Positions 30,026 through 39,475 of a stretch of DNA of 64,000 bases are shown piece after piece. Under the pieces are notes generated by a model. It had not been told where the DNA came from and did not search any database. It saw only the letters and a program-made list of their open reading frames with translations. Source of the DNA: Paraflavitalea pollutisoli (GTDB lineage: Bacteria > Bacteroidota > Bacteroidia > Chitinophagales > Chitinophagaceae); NCBI RefSeq assembly GCF_029360705.1, contig NZ_JARKMX010000008.1, positions 620,001 through 684,000 on the forward strand. The letters are read 5' to 3'. The position numbers were made by a program, and so were the translations under genes. The first letter of the stretch is position 1. Every line of letters starts with the position of its first letter.

Positions 30026-30904
30026 TTAGAGGTATTTAAACAGTTCCTGGGGCGATTGCAACAGGAAAGTGGCCGGGGCCGATCGCAAACCACCGGTGGC
30101 GTATTCGCTGCCCGCGATCAGGAGCGGTAGCTCGCGTGGAAGAGCCATTTGTTGGCGGATCTGTCGCAGGTCATCCTGCACGGGCCGCGTGATGTAGAAG
30201 AGCAGCAGGTGGGTAACGCCCGCCTTGGCGACTACAGCGCTGACCTGTTCGTATGGTACATTTTGTCCCAGGTAGATCGTTTCGATGTCTTTGGAGCGGA
30301 TGAGGTAATTGGCGAGCAACAGGCCGATCTCGTGCCACTCGCCCGGCGGCAGCATCAGCAGGAATTTCTTGCGCCGCTTTTTTTTGATGGTCAGCGCATC
30401 CGTGGCGGTAATCAATTTGCGCCGTACCACCGCTGCTGCAAAATGCTCCTGTACCGGCATCGCGTCTGCCGTCGACCACATGATGCCAATTTTCTCCAGC
30501 AAGGGATACATAACCTGCAGCATGGCCTCGAATACCCCATATCGTTTAACGGCGGCTGCATAAGTACGCTCAAAACCCGCTTCGTCATAGGACAGCATCG
30601 CTATTACCAGTTCATGAATAAAGGTGGTGGCTGCGGCCTCCCCTTCTGCAGTGGGTCCCTGCAGGCCAAGCACCATGGCATGCAGGTCTTCTTCCTCCAG
30701 GGCAGCTATTTTCGAGATCTTATAGCCGTTGTCCAGTAAGGTGGCGACGTTCAGCAGTTTCCGCACCTGCTGATCATCGTACAGCCGGATATTGGTATCG
30801 GTACGGCCGGGCTGTATCAGGTTGTACCGGCGTTCCCATACGCGAATGGTCGGGGCTTTGATGCCCGATAACTGTTCCAACTCGGATATATGATACATTT
30901 TCAT
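30026..30904 (-). CDS. CarH/LitR-type MerR regulator with cobalamin-binding domain
   Basis: The 292-residue protein has a MerR helix-turn-helix (about 1-75, KAPTIRVWERRY), a helical bundle (about 90-175) and a B12-binding domain (about 180-292). The photoreceptor motif W-x9-E-H is present as Trp143, Glu153, His154. His191 in EWHEIG matches the lower axial cobalamin ligand of the DxHxxG motif. Family knowledge: CarH with adenosylcobalamin is a tetramer that represses carotenoid genes in the dark; light breaks the cofactor and releases DNA. The residue after the Trp is Ser here, where as I recall Thermus CarH has a His that binds cobalt after photolysis, so photochemistry may differ. It is divergent from the crt operon. 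The ATG at 30904 is preferred over 30931. Confidence 0.9.
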   Translation of the reverse strand: MKMYHISELEQLSGIKAPTIRVWERRYNLIQPGRTDTNIRLYDDQQVRKLLNVATLLDNGYKISKIAALEEEDLHAMVLGLQGPTAEGEAAATTFIHELVIAMLSYDEAGFERTYAAAVKRYGVFEAMLQVMYPLLEKIGIMWSTADAMPVQEHFAAAVVRRKLITATDALTIKKKRRKKFLLMLPPGEWHEIGLLLANYLIRSKDIETIYLGQNVPYEQVSAVVAKAGVTHLLLFYITRPVQDDLRQIRQQMALPRELPLLIAGSEYATGGLRSAPATFLLQSPQELFKYL

Positions 30905-31078
30905 GGCCGTGCAAAGATAATCATGTGCCAACGCGTTTCGTCAAAAATAACTTCCGGTTAACGCCTTTCGGCGGCTCTTGCTATGTCATGCGCGTAACCA
31001 CACTTCTGCCCTGAGTGTTGTGTGTACCAACGGACGAGTGGGATTTAATTATTTATCAGCTCCATAAAGGTAATGCTT

Positions 31079-31116
31079 ATTTTGTTCAACTTTTATTTAA
31101 TTTTGTTGAACAAAAT
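31079..31116. promoter_or_regulatory. candidate CarH operator: tandem ~11-bp repeats
   Basis: In the gap between the regulator and the operon, three units follow each other at 11- and 10-bp spacing: TTTTGTTCAAC, TTTTATTTAAT, TTTTGTTGAAC. Read on the minus strand they fit a pattern nnTnnACAnnn (the middle unit has ATA), as I recall for Thermus CarH operator repeats. The outer units also form 12-bp inverted arms (31079-31090 and 31105-31116). An exact -7 element TAATTTTG (31098-31105, plus strand) lies within, and a TACCTTTA-like element sits just left on the minus strand, so binding could block both directions. The rest of the 30905-31335 gap shows no gene. Confidence 0.6.
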
Positions 31117-31335
31117 GGACATCCCCAATGGGAAGGATAAGATTGAGTGTAGCGTTCAATGGCCAATTTGTCCGCGCTTGCAGGCACCATTATGGTGTTT
31201 AATCGACCAGGGAATAATGGTTTGACGGTTCGCACCGTTTTTGTGCGGTTTCACTCCGGCACTGTCGATCGCGGCAGGATTTAAGCAGTGGTGAGGCTGG
31301 TAATCACCATCACTCACTTACTTAAAAAATCATCT

Positions 31336-32304
31336 ATGAAATGTATTCGATTGTTTAGTCAGTCTTTATTGGTTGCTGCTGCCGTTACTGCCTTCGGCAT
31401 CACGGGTTGTAAGAAGGACGACGACAAGCCCGTTCAGCGCAACATTACCGAAACCGTTGTCGCCGACCCGCAGCTCACCTTGCTCGAAGCGGCCGTCGTA
31501 AAAGCAGGTCTGGCCAATACCCTGGCCACCACCGCCAATCTGACGGTGTTTGCACCGGATGATGCCGCTTTTAAAATGGTCGACCTCAATGGCGACGGTA
31601 CGCCCGACCTGGATACCGAAGCCAAGATCAATGCCCTGAGTGGCGAAGGGGTTGCCTTGTTGAAAGCCGTGTTACAGTACCATGTATTGGGGATGAAGGT
31701 CATGGCAGCCGATGTGCCCGCCGGACCCAATGCACCCATCACCACCCTGAGTGGCCAGCAGGCTTTTGCAACCCGCAACACAGCCGGCGTATTCATCAAC
31801 GGCGTTAAAGTGAAAAAGGCGGATATCGGCGCCACCAATGGCGTGATCCACATCGTGGAAAAAGTGCTGATGCCACCAGCAGGCAATATCGTGCAGACGG
31901 CAGCCGCCAATCCCAACTTTACCTTCCTGGTAGCAGCGGTACAACGGGCGGGCAGTGATATTGTAAATGCCTTGACAGCAGCGGGGCCCTTAACGGTATT
32001 TGCACCGACCAACCAGGCTTTTATCAACGCGGGTTTTGCCAACATCGCGGCCATACAGGCTGCTGACCCAGCTGCCCTGAAGCCGATCTTGCTGAACCAT
32101 GTGGTGGCAGCGCGGGTATTCTCGTCCGACCTTTCCGAAGGTGCACAACCCGCAACCGCAGGCGGTGGTAAGCTGACGATTACACTGAGTGGAGGAGCCA
32201 AAGTGAAAGGCAATGGCAACACGACCGCTTCCAATATTGTGGCGACTAATATCGTGACGACAAATGGTGTGATCCATGTAGTCGACCAGGTATTGTTACC
32301 CTAA
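31336..32304 (+). CDS. fasciclin (FAS1) domain lipoprotein
   Basis: The 322-residue protein has a lipobox (FGITGC, Cys25) and two FAS1 domains (about 38-178 and 182-322). Each shows the typical LTVFAPDDAAF or LTVFAPTNQAF and VIHIVEKVL or VIHVVDQVLLP motifs. FAS1 proteins mediate adhesion at the cell surface. An upstream in-frame start (31288) would precede the signal peptide and is rejected. It is the first gene of the run leading to the carotenoid genes, 15 nt before lytS. A direct role in carotenoid storage or binding is possible but not shown. Confidence 0.9.
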   Translation: MKCIRLFSQSLLVAAAVTAFGITGCKKDDDKPVQRNITETVVADPQLTLLEAAVVKAGLANTLATTANLTVFAPDDAAFKMVDLNGDGTPDLDTEAKINALSGEGVALLKAVLQYHVLGMKVMAADVPAGPNAPITTLSGQQAFATRNTAGVFINGVKVKKADIGATNGVIHIVEKVLMPPAGNIVQTAAANPNFTFLVAAVQRAGSDIVNALTAAGPLTVFAPTNQAFINAGFANIAAIQAADPAALKPILLNHVVAARVFSSDLSEGAQPATAGGGKLTITLSGGAKVKGNGNTTASNIVATNIVTTNGVIHVVDQVLLP

Positions 32305-32319
32305 TTTGAACTGAAACAC

Positions 32320-33348
32320 ATGTTTACGCATCGATACCGATATGTTTTTATAATGCTGTTGTCCGCTTACGCTTACATCAATACGGTGTTGTGTGAGGTG
32401 TACCGTTATTTTCACATTGATATAGCCTGGTATCATGCCCTGATGATCTTCGTGTTGGTGACGTTGGTCACCTGGGAAGGTAGCCGCTTGATTGAGCCCT
32501 GGCTGATCAGGCGGTTTCCCCCCCAGCAACAACGCATCAAATACCTGGGAGCTTTCTTTGCAGCTGGTCTCAGTATCTCCTGCCTCGCTACCGTTGCCAT
32601 TGTGTATATAGTGGGGGTCGGTATCTACCACTACCCGGTCGCGCAGCTGGAAATGCCTTTTAAGCTGAACCTGATCTATGCGGGACTCATCAGCCTGCTC
32701 TTTCACCTGCTCAATGCCATCCTCTACTTTTTCCGCGAGTACCGCAACAAGGCCACGGAAGCGGAGGCGTTAAAACGCATCAGTGCGCAAGCCGAACTGC
32801 AGGCGATTAAAAACCAGGTCAATCCTCATTTTCTCTTCAACAACCTCAATGTGCTCTCGGGCATGGTGATCAAGGACAATCCCCGGGCCAACCGCTTTAT
32901 CGAAGCATTTTCCAAAGTGTACCGGTATATTCTGCACAGCCAGGATAAAGAACTGGTGGAGCTCGAAAAGGAACTGGCCTTTATTCAGCCCTATGTGTAC
33001 CTACTGCAACAGCGCTACCCGGATGGGTTGAAGGTAGATATCGGTGTATCGGAACAATATTACAACAGCTACATCATCCCGGTAGCCTTGCAAATGCTGA
33101 TCGAAAATGCCATCAAGCACAATGTGATCTCGCGCAACAGTCCGTTGCACATCGAAGTGTTGGCAGATGCCGCTGGCAACCTCACGGTTCGTAACAACCG
33201 GCAGCCGCGCCAATCGGTGGAGCAGTCGAACAGGATCGGGCTCACCAATATTGCCAAGCGGTACGAATTGGTATGCGGCCGGCAGATCACCATTCACCAG
33301 TCGCCGGAGGTGTTTGAAGTTCAATTGCCCTTATTGCATTTAAACTGA
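32320..33348 (+). CDS. LytS-type sensor histidine kinase
   Basis: The 342-residue protein has four membrane helices (about 8-28, 37-55, 76-100, 115-137) and a His_kinase (PF06580) core. The motif QVNPHFLFNNLN gives phosphoacceptor His170; the N-box is IENAIKHN and the G-box is IGLTNIAKRY. It pairs with the LytTR response regulator gene that starts 4 nt after its stop. No ligand domain is visible outside the membrane part, so the signal may be membrane-related. Its place inside the carotenoid operon suggests control of, or response to, membrane or light-linked state (inference). Confidence 0.92.
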   Translation: MFTHRYRYVFIMLLSAYAYINTVLCEVYRYFHIDIAWYHALMIFVLVTLVTWEGSRLIEPWLIRRFPPQQQRIKYLGAFFAAGLSISCLATVAIVYIVGVGIYHYPVAQLEMPFKLNLIYAGLISLLFHLLNAILYFFREYRNKATEAEALKRISAQAELQAIKNQVNPHFLFNNLNVLSGMVIKDNPRANRFIEAFSKVYRYILHSQDKELVELEKELAFIQPYVYLLQQRYPDGLKVDIGVSEQYYNSYIIPVALQMLIENAIKHNVISRNSPLHIEVLADAAGNLTVRNNRQPRQSVEQSNRIGLTNIAKRYELVCGRQITIHQSPEVFEVQLPLLHLN

Positions 33349-33352
33349 TGTT

Positions 33353-34111
33353 ATGAAAGTGCTGATCGTGGAAGACGAATTACTGGCTGCCCAACGGCTG
33401 CAACTGATGATCGGTCAATACGACCCATCTATACGGGATATCTATTGCACCGAAAGTGTGGGTGAAACGGTGGCCTGGCTACGACAGCATCCGGCCCCAG
33501 ACCTCATCCTATCGGATATCCAGCTTTCCGACGGACATAGCTTCGACATCTTCCGGCGGATCGCCTATAAGGGGCCCGTTGTATTTACCACGGCCTACGA
33601 TCAGTACGCGATGGAGGCTTTCCGGTTGTTCAGCATCGATTATATATTAAAGCCTGTTACGGCGGATGCCCTTGCGCAGGCCTTTCACAAATACAAGGAG
33701 ATAGTAACGCCGGCCATCGATTACCAGCAGGTGCTGCCGAGGGTGCAGCAGGTGGTGGCGGATGAAGGATTCAAGAGCCGGTTCCTGGGGCGCATCGGGC
33801 AGCGCCTGCAATTTGTGCAGGCGGAAGATGTTTCCTTTTTTCAGGCCGATAACAAGATCGTATACCTCACCGATAAGCAGGGGGTGCGGTACCTCATCGA
33901 CTATACCCTGGAAAAACTGGAACAATTGCTGAACCCTAAACTGTTTTTCCGGCTCAACCGCCGGTACATTGTGCGGTATTCGGCGATCGAATACATCAAA
34001 CCGCACCTCAACAGCCGGCTCAAACTGGAAGTGAAAGGTGCCGGCAGGGAGGATGAGTTCATCATCAGCCGCGAGCGGGTAGCTGAATTCAGGACCTGGG
34101 CCGAGGCGTAG
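33353..34111 (+). CDS. LytTR-family response regulator
   Basis: The 252-residue protein has a receiver domain (about 1-115; phosphoacceptor Asp55 in ILSDIQLSD, Lys near residue 102 in YILKPV) and a C-terminal LytTR DNA-binding domain (about 145-250). It is the evident partner of the LytS kinase encoded upstream. LytTR proteins bind pairs of short repeats and often control envelope or exopolysaccharide genes. It precedes crtI by 27 nt. Confidence 0.93.
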   Translation: MKVLIVEDELLAAQRLQLMIGQYDPSIRDIYCTESVGETVAWLRQHPAPDLILSDIQLSDGHSFDIFRRIAYKGPVVFTTAYDQYAMEAFRLFSIDYILKPVTADALAQAFHKYKEIVTPAIDYQQVLPRVQQVVADEGFKSRFLGRIGQRLQFVQAEDVSFFQADNKIVYLTDKQGVRYLIDYTLEKLEQLLNPKLFFRLNRRYIVRYSAIEYIKPHLNSRLKLEVKGAGREDEFIISRERVAEFRTWAEA

Positions 34112-34138: not shown

Positions 34139-35620
34139 ATGCAGCAAAAGATAGCAATCATTGGTTCAGGAATTTCAGGATTGGCAGCGGCCGCCTATGC
34201 AGCCAAGGCCGGGCACGACGTTCATGTTTTTGAGAAGAACAGTACGCCGGGCGGACGGGCGCGTCAGTTTACAACGGATAACGGTTATACGTTCGATATG
34301 GGACCCAGCTGGTACTGGATGCCGGATATCATCAATGATTTCTTTGTCGATTTTGGCTATTCCGCTACCGATTTTTACAAGTTGGTACCGCTCGATCCGC
34401 AGTTTGACATGGTCTTTGCCGATGGCCACCTGGCGGTACCCCGCGACTACAAAGCCCTGCGCAATTTATTTGAGGAAACGGAGGTGGGTGCAGGCGCCAG
34501 GTTGGATGCTTTCATGAAGGCGGCCCGTTATAAGTATGAGGTCGGTATGCGTCAGTTCGTGCACAAGCCCTGTCATTCCTGGTGGGAGTTTGTATCGCCC
34601 AAAATTGCCGCCAGTGCTTTCCGGCTGGACCTGCTCACGGATTTTCGCAGTTACGTAAAAAAGTATTTCCGTCACCCCAGGCTGGTGGCTTTGATGGAGT
34701 TTCCGGTAATTTTCCTGGGTGCATCACCTCAACGGATACCGGCCCTCTACAGCCTGATGAATTACGGGGGCTATGGCTTGGGCACCTGGTATCCGATGGG
34801 TGGCTTCTATGAACTGGTCAAAGCCATGTACGCGATTGCTGAGGCACAGGGGGTGCAGTTTTATTTCGACCAGCCGGTTGAGCAGATCAACGCCGCTGGC
34901 GGCAAGGTGCGCTCGCTGCGGATTAAGGGTCAGGAACGTCGTTTCGATGCAGTGATTGCCTCTTCCGATTATCACCATACTGAAACCTTGCTCGAGCCTT
35001 CGTTTCGCAACTATGGACAGAGATATTGGGAAAGCCGTACTTTTGCACCATCGTCGCTTATTTATTACCTGGGTTTCCGCGAGCGAATCCCCGGGTTGCA
35101 ACACCATACCTTGTTTTTCGAGCATGACCTTGATATCCATATCGACGACATCTATCACCGCAAGCAATGGCCCCGCAAACCGCTGTTTTATGCCTGCTGC
35201 CCCTCGAAAACAGATCCCGGCGTAGCGCCCCCCGGCCACGAAAACCTGTTCCTGCTGATGCCCCTGGCGAACGGCCTGCAGGATGACGCAGCCGTACGCG
35301 CGCATTATTTCGAACAAATGATCCGGCGGATAGAGCAAACCTCGGGCGCCACCGGGCTGGTGGACCTGATCGATTATAAAAGAAGCTATTGTGTACGTGA
35401 TTTCGTGCAGGACTACAATGCTTTCCGGGGTAATGCCTATGGACTGGCCAATACGCTCTCGCAAACGGCAGTGTTAAAGCCATCTATCCGTAACAAGCAA
35501 CTCGACAATCTTTTTTATACCGGTCAACTCACCGTACCCGGGCCGGGTGTGCCCCCTTCGTTGATATCGGGCAAGATCGTAGCTAATGAACTTAATCACC
35601 TAACAAACACCAACGTTTGA
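34139..35620 (+). CDS. crtI: phytoene desaturase
   Basis: The 493-residue flavoenzyme has an N-terminal dinucleotide-binding motif (IAIIGSGISG, glycines at 9, 11 and 14) followed by FEKNSTPGGRAR, and a C-terminal CrtI signature with LFYTGQLTVPGPGVPPSLISG. CrtI converts colourless phytoene to lycopene (or neurosporene) by stepwise desaturation at the membrane. It lies between the LytTR regulator gene and crtB; its TGA stop overlaps the crtB TTG start, which favours coupled translation and matched enzyme amounts. Confidence 0.95.
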   Translation: MQQKIAIIGSGISGLAAAAYAAKAGHDVHVFEKNSTPGGRARQFTTDNGYTFDMGPSWYWMPDIINDFFVDFGYSATDFYKLVPLDPQFDMVFADGHLAVPRDYKALRNLFEETEVGAGARLDAFMKAARYKYEVGMRQFVHKPCHSWWEFVSPKIAASAFRLDLLTDFRSYVKKYFRHPRLVALMEFPVIFLGASPQRIPALYSLMNYGGYGLGTWYPMGGFYELVKAMYAIAEAQGVQFYFDQPVEQINAAGGKVRSLRIKGQERRFDAVIASSDYHHTETLLEPSFRNYGQRYWESRTFAPSSLIYYLGFRERIPGLQHHTLFFEHDLDIHIDDIYHRKQWPRKPLFYACCPSKTDPGVAPPGHENLFLLMPLANGLQDDAAVRAHYFEQMIRRIEQTSGATGLVDLIDYKRSYCVRDFVQDYNAFRGNAYGLANTLSQTAVLKPSIRNKQLDNLFYTGQLTVPGPGVPPSLISGKIVANELNHLTNTNV

Positions 35621-36453
35621 AAATACTATTCGACCAATTTTCCCGCAAAGTGAGCAAATGCATCACCCAGCAATACAGCACCAGTTTTTCACTGGGCATT
35701 ATGGCCTTGAGCCCATCTATCCGGCCAGCGATCTATTCTATCTACGGTTATGTCCGGCTGGCCGATGAGATCGTCGACAGTTTTCATGACTACAACAAAT
35801 CACTGCTGCTCGAGCGCTTTACGGAGCAAACCTGGCAGGCACTAGATGAACGCATTTCCCTCAATCCGGTGTTGCAATCCTTCCAGGAAGCGGTACACCG
35901 CTACCAGATCGACCGTCAGTTGATCAGGCAGTTCCTGCATAGCATGCAAATGGACCTTTCGCCGATGGAATACGATTCGGCGCGGTACAAGGAGTACATC
36001 CTGGGATCGGCAGAAGTGGTGGGGCTGATGTGCCTGCAGGTGTTTGTGGAAGGCGATGCCAAAGCCTATGATGCGTTGAAGCCCTATGCCATGAAGCTAG
36101 GGTCGGTATTTCAGAAGGTCAATTTTCTGCGGGATCTGAAGGACGATTACCAGGTATTGGGCCGTACCTATTTCCCCAACATCGAAATGAGTTGTTTCGA
36201 TAACCACATTAAGCGCAGCATCGAGGCAGATATCGAAGCAGAGTTCAAAGAAGCCCTGATTGGTATCCGGCGGCTTCCACCCTGTTCGCGGTTTGGCGTG
36301 TACCTGGCTTATAAGTATTACTGGTCATTGTTCAGGAAAATCCAGCAACTGCCTGCTCAGCGTATTCTGCAGGAGCGTATCCGCATTCCCAACGTGCAGA
36401 AATTATCCTTGATGATGAGCAGCTATGTACAATATAAAGTGGCTGTGTTGTGA
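35617..36453 (+). CDS. crtB: phytoene synthase
   Basis: The 278-residue enzyme has the two Asp-rich motifs of squalene/phytoene synthases: DEIVD (about 50-54) and DLKDD (about 173-177). It joins two geranylgeranyl diphosphates to phytoene, the first committed carotenoid step. The start codon is TTG at 35617, overlapping the crtI stop as TTGA. No ATG is better placed, and homologues begin in this region with a similar MKILFDQFSRKVSK sequence. It acts at the membrane surface. Confidence 0.94.
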   Translation: MKILFDQFSRKVSKCITQQYSTSFSLGIMALSPSIRPAIYSIYGYVRLADEIVDSFHDYNKSLLLERFTEQTWQALDERISLNPVLQSFQEAVHRYQIDRQLIRQFLHSMQMDLSPMEYDSARYKEYILGSAEVVGLMCLQVFVEGDAKAYDALKPYAMKLGSVFQKVNFLRDLKDDYQVLGRTYFPNIEMSCFDNHIKRSIEADIEAEFKEALIGIRRLPPCSRFGVYLAYKYYWSLFRKIQQLPAQRILQERIRIPNVQKLSLMMSSYVQYKVAVL

Positions 36454-36471: not shown

Positions 36472-36963
36472 ATGATTTTTACGCTTATTACGCTTACTAC
36501 ATTTATGCTCATGGAAGGGGCCACCTGGTGTATTCACAAATATGTGATGCATGGGTTTTTGTGGGCGCTGCACAAGGACCATCATGACCACAGTCATGAC
36601 CATGAGCTGGAGCGCAATGACCTGTTCTTTGTGATCTTTGCACTGCCCACGATCGTATTGTTTTACCTGGGAACCCGGGGCGGCATCAATTACCTCTTCT
36701 TTATCGGACTGGGCATTCTGCTGTATGGAATGGCTTATTTCTTTGTGCACGATATCTTCATTCACCAACGGCTGAAATGGTTGCGTGATACGAAGAATCC
36801 CTACCTGCTCGCTATCCGCCGGGCACACAAACAACACCACAAGCATACTGGCAAAGAGCAGGGCGAATGTTTTGGTTTTCTTTGGGTGCCTGTTAAATTC
36901 TTCAGGATGTATTTCAGTGGCCGGCGCCGGGCCAGTGTTGAAAGCGGTCAGCCGTTGCGATAG
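36472..36963 (+). CDS. crtZ: beta-carotene hydroxylase (sterol desaturase superfamily)
   Basis: The 163-residue membrane protein carries the di-iron histidine clusters of CrtZ: His22/His27, His34/His37/His38, His93/His98 and His119/His122/His123. It has about four membrane segments. CrtZ hydroxylates beta-ionone rings, giving zeaxanthin from beta-carotene. Since it needs a cyclic substrate, a lycopene cyclase should exist, but none is in the operon or window. It is the last gene of the run that starts with the fasciclin gene. Confidence 0.93.
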   Translation: MIFTLITLTTFMLMEGATWCIHKYVMHGFLWALHKDHHDHSHDHELERNDLFFVIFALPTIVLFYLGTRGGINYLFFIGLGILLYGMAYFFVHDIFIHQRLKWLRDTKNPYLLAIRRAHKQHHKHTGKEQGECFGFLWVPVKFFRMYFSGRRRASVESGQPLR

Positions 36964-39380: not shown

Positions 39381-39475
39381 CCTCTTACACATCCTCTACA
39401 CATGCTCTACACATGCTCTAACCGCTCTCTGGTAAGGAGACAGTTTCCATAAGGAGTGCAGAGGATGTGTAGAGG
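39381..39475. repeat. tandem 11-bp repeats with distant inverted copy
   Basis: CTCTACACATG occurs twice in tandem (39394-39404, 39405-39415) and partly a third time, preceded by a degenerate copy with one extra T. About 60 nt away AGAGGATGTGTAGAGG (39460-39475) is the inverted counterpart, so the whole can fold into a large stem. It sits in a 720-nt gap (39184-39903) where no gene is supported. The role is unknown: a regulatory site, a small RNA, or a recombination relic. Confidence 0.6.

Follow-up and report, generated by a model that had tools for sequence, protein, structure and literature searches.

In the window analysed here, a stretch of 64,000 nucleotides from Paraflavitalea pollutisoli (contig NZ_JARKMX010000008.1, positions 620,001 to 684,000), a 38-bp element at positions 31079–31116 lies between a carH-type gene and a divergent carotenoid (crt) operon. 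We consider it likely that the CarH-type regulator encoded next to this element uses it as its operator. The protein would bind inverted TnnACAAAA half-sites in the dark and thereby block crt, would be released by light and would have folE and photolyase genes in the same regulon. The element reads ATTTTGTTCAAC TTTTATTTAATTTT GTTGAACAAAAT, two perfectly inverted 12-bp arms separated by 14 bp. In this putative operator (ATTTTGTTCAAC-N14-GTTGAACAAAAT, assigned to neither strand and identified by direct reading, a chance test and fixed-spacer conservation in relatives) the left arm (31079–31090, minus strand, with TnnACA facing outwards) and the right arm (31105–31116, plus strand) both carry the half-site TGAACAAAAT. 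From the sequences we could show the site, its fixed geometry and conservation, its gene neighbours and the B12-photoreceptor signature of the encoded protein.

The original prediction, made by a model from the letters alone, had described the element as a triple 11-bp repeat as in the CarH operator of Thermus. The three units are indeed present and overlap the inverted repeat: on the plus strand TTTTGTTCAA (31080–31089), TTTTATTTAA (31091–31100) and TTTTGTTGAA (31101–31110) stand at offsets 0/11/21 with 25 of 30 pairwise matches, and on the minus strand they give TCAACA, TAAATA and TGAACA, which are two full and one broken TnnACA. The middle unit is the weakest of the three and is not conserved in relatives. 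Shuffling the intergenic gap 2000 times and the window 12 times produced neither the inverted nor the direct pattern, and perfect 12-bp arms with a gap of 4–20 bp occur at just two places in the 64 kb, 31079–31116 being one of them. A strict 11/11 register of the triple repeat was rejected as unexceptional, with 93 windows scoring equally high, whereas the 11/10 register is exceptional. A perfect inverted repeat describes the 38-bp element better than three direct units do.

Conservation of the site and the candidate regulon

To follow the site through its relatives we used 396 Chitinophagaceae genomes, 33 of them with a CarH orthologue at E ≤ 1e-60. Upstream of most of these carH orthologues the inverted repeat is found with 0–5 mismatches, while shuffled upstream regions reach 6–11 at best. 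An unbiased, motif-free scan for inverted repeats upstream of the carH orthologues peaked at the same geometry (25 against about 1.7 expected), and pairs of the half-site TTRAACAAA facing outwards at a spacing of 25 are present at 19 of 30 family loci, compared with at most one in shuffles. In the wider phylum the same outward-facing spacing was seen at 22 of 49 loci (at most 3 in shuffles), and the site stands beside carH at 26 of the 49, where the shuffle mean is 0.05. It is the sequence of the arms and not pairing alone that is conserved, and the spacer is constant at 14. Aligning the 300-bp gap of this genome with those of Paraflavitalea sp. CAU 1676 and Niastella populi shows the 38 bp as a conspicuous block in sequence that has otherwise diverged. 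The alignment with related genomes that the original prediction had proposed as a check therefore turned out in its favour, as the site is conserved along with the gene pair. The element is very probably a functional CarH-type operator with inverted architecture. In one other Bacteroidota family two operator copies are found 44 bp apart downstream of carH (L112, L113, L115).

With up to 3 mismatches allowed, the pattern occurs at two places in the genome, 31079–31116 and C15:209937–209972, both of them light-linked divergent promoters. The second copy lies in the gap between folE and a divergent SRPBCC-photolyase-TspO operon (L069:6186–9537, with a photolyase-related protein), and through it folE and this operon would join the same light regulon. 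Among relatives the site precedes carH, crtI, folE, folE-carH and photolyases, and also TspO clusters and a small number of redox genes. The same inverted repeat, its spacer again 14 bp long, is seen at carH, crt, folE and photolyase genes both within the Chitinophagaceae and in other Bacteroidota. Genomes with carH contain 77 sites against 4 control matches, and the other 363 Chitinophagaceae genomes 149 against 71. At three loci (L093, L095, L096) a small conserved protein (EADIDRVIEMAWEDRTPFDAI) and then flavin-reductase-like genes come after the same operator, as new candidates for membership of the light regulon.

The adjacent regulator and the promoters

The CarH-type regulator gene expected next to the element is present at 30026–30904 on the minus strand and encodes a MerR/B12-binding photoreceptor homologue of 292 aa, assigned by Pfam, a PDB match, signature residues and a fold match. 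Its product has the domains of the CarH/LitR proteins (Pfam MerR_1 6e-16, B12-binding_2 4e-8), its closest solved relatives are Thermus CarH (PDB CarH, E 6e-23) and its predicted model (mean predicted local distance difference test score 84) matches the CarH-DNA complex 5c8e over the full length with an E of 2.7e-15. The residues defining the light response, GxxW, EH, GxxH and GxxxP (PMC11796333), are complete as GIMW, EH, GEWH and GQNVP, with W131, E141, H142 and H177 kept. Against the NCBIfam equivalog CarH (NF052513) the protein scores 103 bits with a cut-off of 400, so that judged by these profiles it is related to CarH at the level of the family and not as an equivalog. An adenosyltransferase making adenosylcobalamin is also encoded in the genome. 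Binding by this CarH, a dark oligomer, repression and light release are what we infer, with dark binding and light release taken by analogy from the CarH family.

The genome encodes three CarH-type proteins. The second gene (carH2, G000:C10:285679–286536, L006) heads a second carotenoid cluster of carH2, an extracytoplasmic function (ECF) sigma factor and crtI, and its flanks contain degenerate inverted repeats only. The third (G000:C15:1373542–1374402, L007) has the W/E/H/H positions intact and adjoins lepB-like and TPR genes, with no carotenoid genes within 1.5 kb on either side.

A link between protein and site comes from the recognition helix. Where it reads IKAPTIR, operator positions 9 and 30 are C and G in 8 of 9 sites; with IKAHTIR these positions are mostly T and A, and C and G were seen in only 1 of 50. 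Both sites of this genome have CAA/TTG arms, matching the Pro-type helix of the adjacent CarH. The change from His to Pro in the helix goes together with a base change that is symmetric between the arms, as it should be if one and the same domain reads them in inverted orientation.

An exact TAnnTTTG had been predicted inside the element, and TAATTTTG is found there at 31098–31105 on the plus strand as a putative Bacteroidota -7 box directed towards the fasciclin-crt operon. It is the only plus-strand TAnnTTTG within 30890–31360 and it keeps its register in 6 of 8 close orthologues. The site accordingly overlaps a crt promoter element, as CarH operators do, and the prediction that the site covers a promoter element in the crt direction was borne out. 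Of 36 operators, 15 contain TAnnTTTG where 2.0 would be expected, and the box favours two registers; this is consistent with repression by occlusion. The suggested overlap with the regulator's own promoter could not be upheld, as the element contains a single TAnnTTTG, directed at crt, and the probable -7 box of carH (TATCTTTG, 30912–30919, minus strand) lies 7 nt ahead of the ATG and 160 bp from the operator; among close orthologues of carH, 6 of 8 have TAnnTTTG at -15/-16. Since carH has this separate box, direct autoregulation through overlap is unsupported here. In more distant genomes the same operator lies on the start of carH and ends at its start codon.

On the plus side six tightly spaced genes form an operon, encoding a fasciclin-domain protein (31336–32304, Pfam PF02469), a LytS-type histidine kinase (32320–33348, PF06580), a LytTR response regulator (33353–34111, PF04397 and PF00072), the phytoene desaturase CrtI (34139–35620, NCBIfam NF058655, above cut-off), the phytoene synthase CrtB (35617–36453, PF00494) and a probable CrtZ-like hydroxylase (36472–36963), which is without a family match and was assigned from His motifs, position and conserved synteny. 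The LytS/LytTR pair inside the crt operon (window 32320–34111) stays beside crtI in several close relatives. Elsewhere in the window, at 39381–39420, there is a 3.5-copy tandem array of CCTCTACACAT with a period of 11 that is unrelated to the operator.

According to the model we propose, CarH with bound adenosylcobalamin would oligomerize in the dark and place its MerR-type domains on the inverted pair of TnnACAAAA half-sites, whose 12-bp arms are 14 bp apart. There it would occlude the -7 box that serves the divergent fasciclin-LytSR-crtIBZ operon and so keep RNA polymerase off. In the light the Co-C bond would be cleaved, the oligomer would dissociate and transcription could begin.

Several points weigh against this model. 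The covariation of helix and arms amounts to essentially one evolutionary change and therefore supports the model without proving it. In the crt direction the promoter lacks a clear -33 element, and the leader would be some 220 nt long; when this leader was compared across three relatives, the operator alone was clearly conserved. At 17 of the 49 phylum loci no site could be recognised, the mismatches exceeding 5, and some of these loci come from distant paralogues. Finally, position 132 is Ser here, compared with His132 as cobalt ligand after light in Thermus CarH, and His is found at this position in none of 36 Chitinophagaceae CarH homologues, though all other key positions are kept. The Thermus H132A variant is still mostly tetrameric in the light (PMC10442372), yet CtMerR has Arg at position 132 and goes from tetramer to monomer in light (PMC11796333), so that light release of this CarH stays plausible.

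Alternative readings of the element

If the original prediction were right about the architecture, a CarH tetramer would sit on three head-to-tail 11-bp units of the minus strand and the inverted symmetry would be incidental, which we regard as unlikely. The minus-strand units at 10/11 bp, their 25 matches and the rarity of such a pattern in shuffles speak for it, as do the direct 21-bp spacing (6 pairs in 30 family loci, present at 10 of 49 phylum loci) and the finding that binding tolerates imperfect repeats (PMC9304148). But in 26 aligned operators TnnACA stands at direct units 1, 2 and 3 in 5, 0 and 24 cases, compared with 19 at the inverted left arm, counts that are biased by the pattern-based selection of sites; this bias is smaller in the motif-free scan, the 30-locus pair count and the 49-locus phylum scan. 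Three TnnACA at about 11 bp were found at none of the 49 phylum loci by a scan that does detect the Thermus triplet, and upstream of the 30 family orthologues the regulator strand had no triplet and the opposite strand a single one, with pairs at chance level. At least three tandem 11-bp repeats of the form nnnnTnnACAn are not present in the element, as 2 of 3 units match, the spacing is 10/11 and the pattern is unconserved. In the Thermus operator, our positive control, TGTACA, TTGACA and TATACA follow each other at exactly 11/11, and an inverted repeat of this kind is absent. The extra direct unit overlaps the -7 box CAAAnnTA in close relatives, and the promoter can therefore account for it.

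About equally unlikely is that another CarH paralogue, for example CarH2 (contig C10:285679), is the main binder instead of the adjacent product. There are three candidates in the genome and CarH2-type genes of other genera adjoin the same kind of site, but CarH2 has the His-type helix, which pairs with TTTAA/TTAAA arms, and both genomic sites are CAA/TTG. Still less probable is a site for the LytTR regulator of the operon, although its LytSR pair is encoded there and the element contains GTT...GTT 21 bp apart, similar to the spacing of LytTR direct repeats: 73 of 78 comparable sites are at loci where no LytR homologue was found, and the symmetry that is conserved is the inverted one. We give hardly any credence to an RNA hairpin, a terminator or a random AT-rich inverted repeat lacking a DNA-binding partner. 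Inverted repeats can fold and the spacer is AT-rich, but the arm sequence is conserved beyond pairing, the spacer is always 14, the sites are located at divergent promoters and start codons, and an Rfam search of the region gave no match.

Relation to known CarH and LitR operators

The inverted CarH operator proposed here probably extends beyond this genome, and with somewhat less confidence than for the single site we suggest that CarH throughout the Bacteroidota reads a pair of inverted TnnACAAAA half-sites with a fixed 14-bp spacer in place of tandem direct repeats, arranges its DNA-binding domains differently in the dark oligomer and controls an undescribed light regulon that takes in genes for carotenoids, photolyases, folate and TspO. 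Our literature searches, with subscription journals mostly outside their coverage, found neither a Bacteroidota CarH operator nor an inverted architecture for the CarH family. Light-induced carotenoids have been reported in Bacteroidota without a known regulator, for example in Chryseobacterium lacus (PMC7064467), and the operator could serve as a searchable tag for light-controlled genes in this phylum and as a candidate green-light switch for its engineering. Tandem direct-repeat operators have shaped the structural model of the CarH tetramer on DNA, and an inverted operator kept in another phylum would mean that the same half-site is usable in a different geometry, which raises a structural question.

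CtMerR, a light-responsive MerR/B12 protein, resembles the protein described here in its GxxW, EH, GxxH and GxxxP signature and in lacking His132; its operator is not described in that work (PMC11796333). The operators of the Pseudomonas class II LitR proteins PplR1 and PmlR2, T(G/A)TACA-N12-TGTA(C/T)A (PMC9758184), also consist of two spaced hexamers with a consensus readable as inverted, and their regulon likewise includes a folate-pathway gene. In contrast, the hexamers are 12 bp apart there and 18 bp here (TGTTCA-N18-TGAACA), and PmlR2 responds via a light, oxygen, voltage (LOV) partner (PMC9758184). The CarH operators described for Thermus thermophilus, Bacillus (Priestia) megaterium and myxobacteria are tandem direct repeats (PMC9304148), unlike the two outward-facing half-sites found here in inverted orientation around a 14-bp spacer. 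They share with the present site the half-site TnnACA and the overlap with a crt promoter. As in Thermus, carH is divergent from its neighbours, the partner there being crtB-photolyase, and TnnACA is followed by AAAA. Compared as sequences, the two operators have the half-site TnnACAAAA in common and differ in its arrangement. It is the architecture of the operator that is new; the kind of regulator is known.
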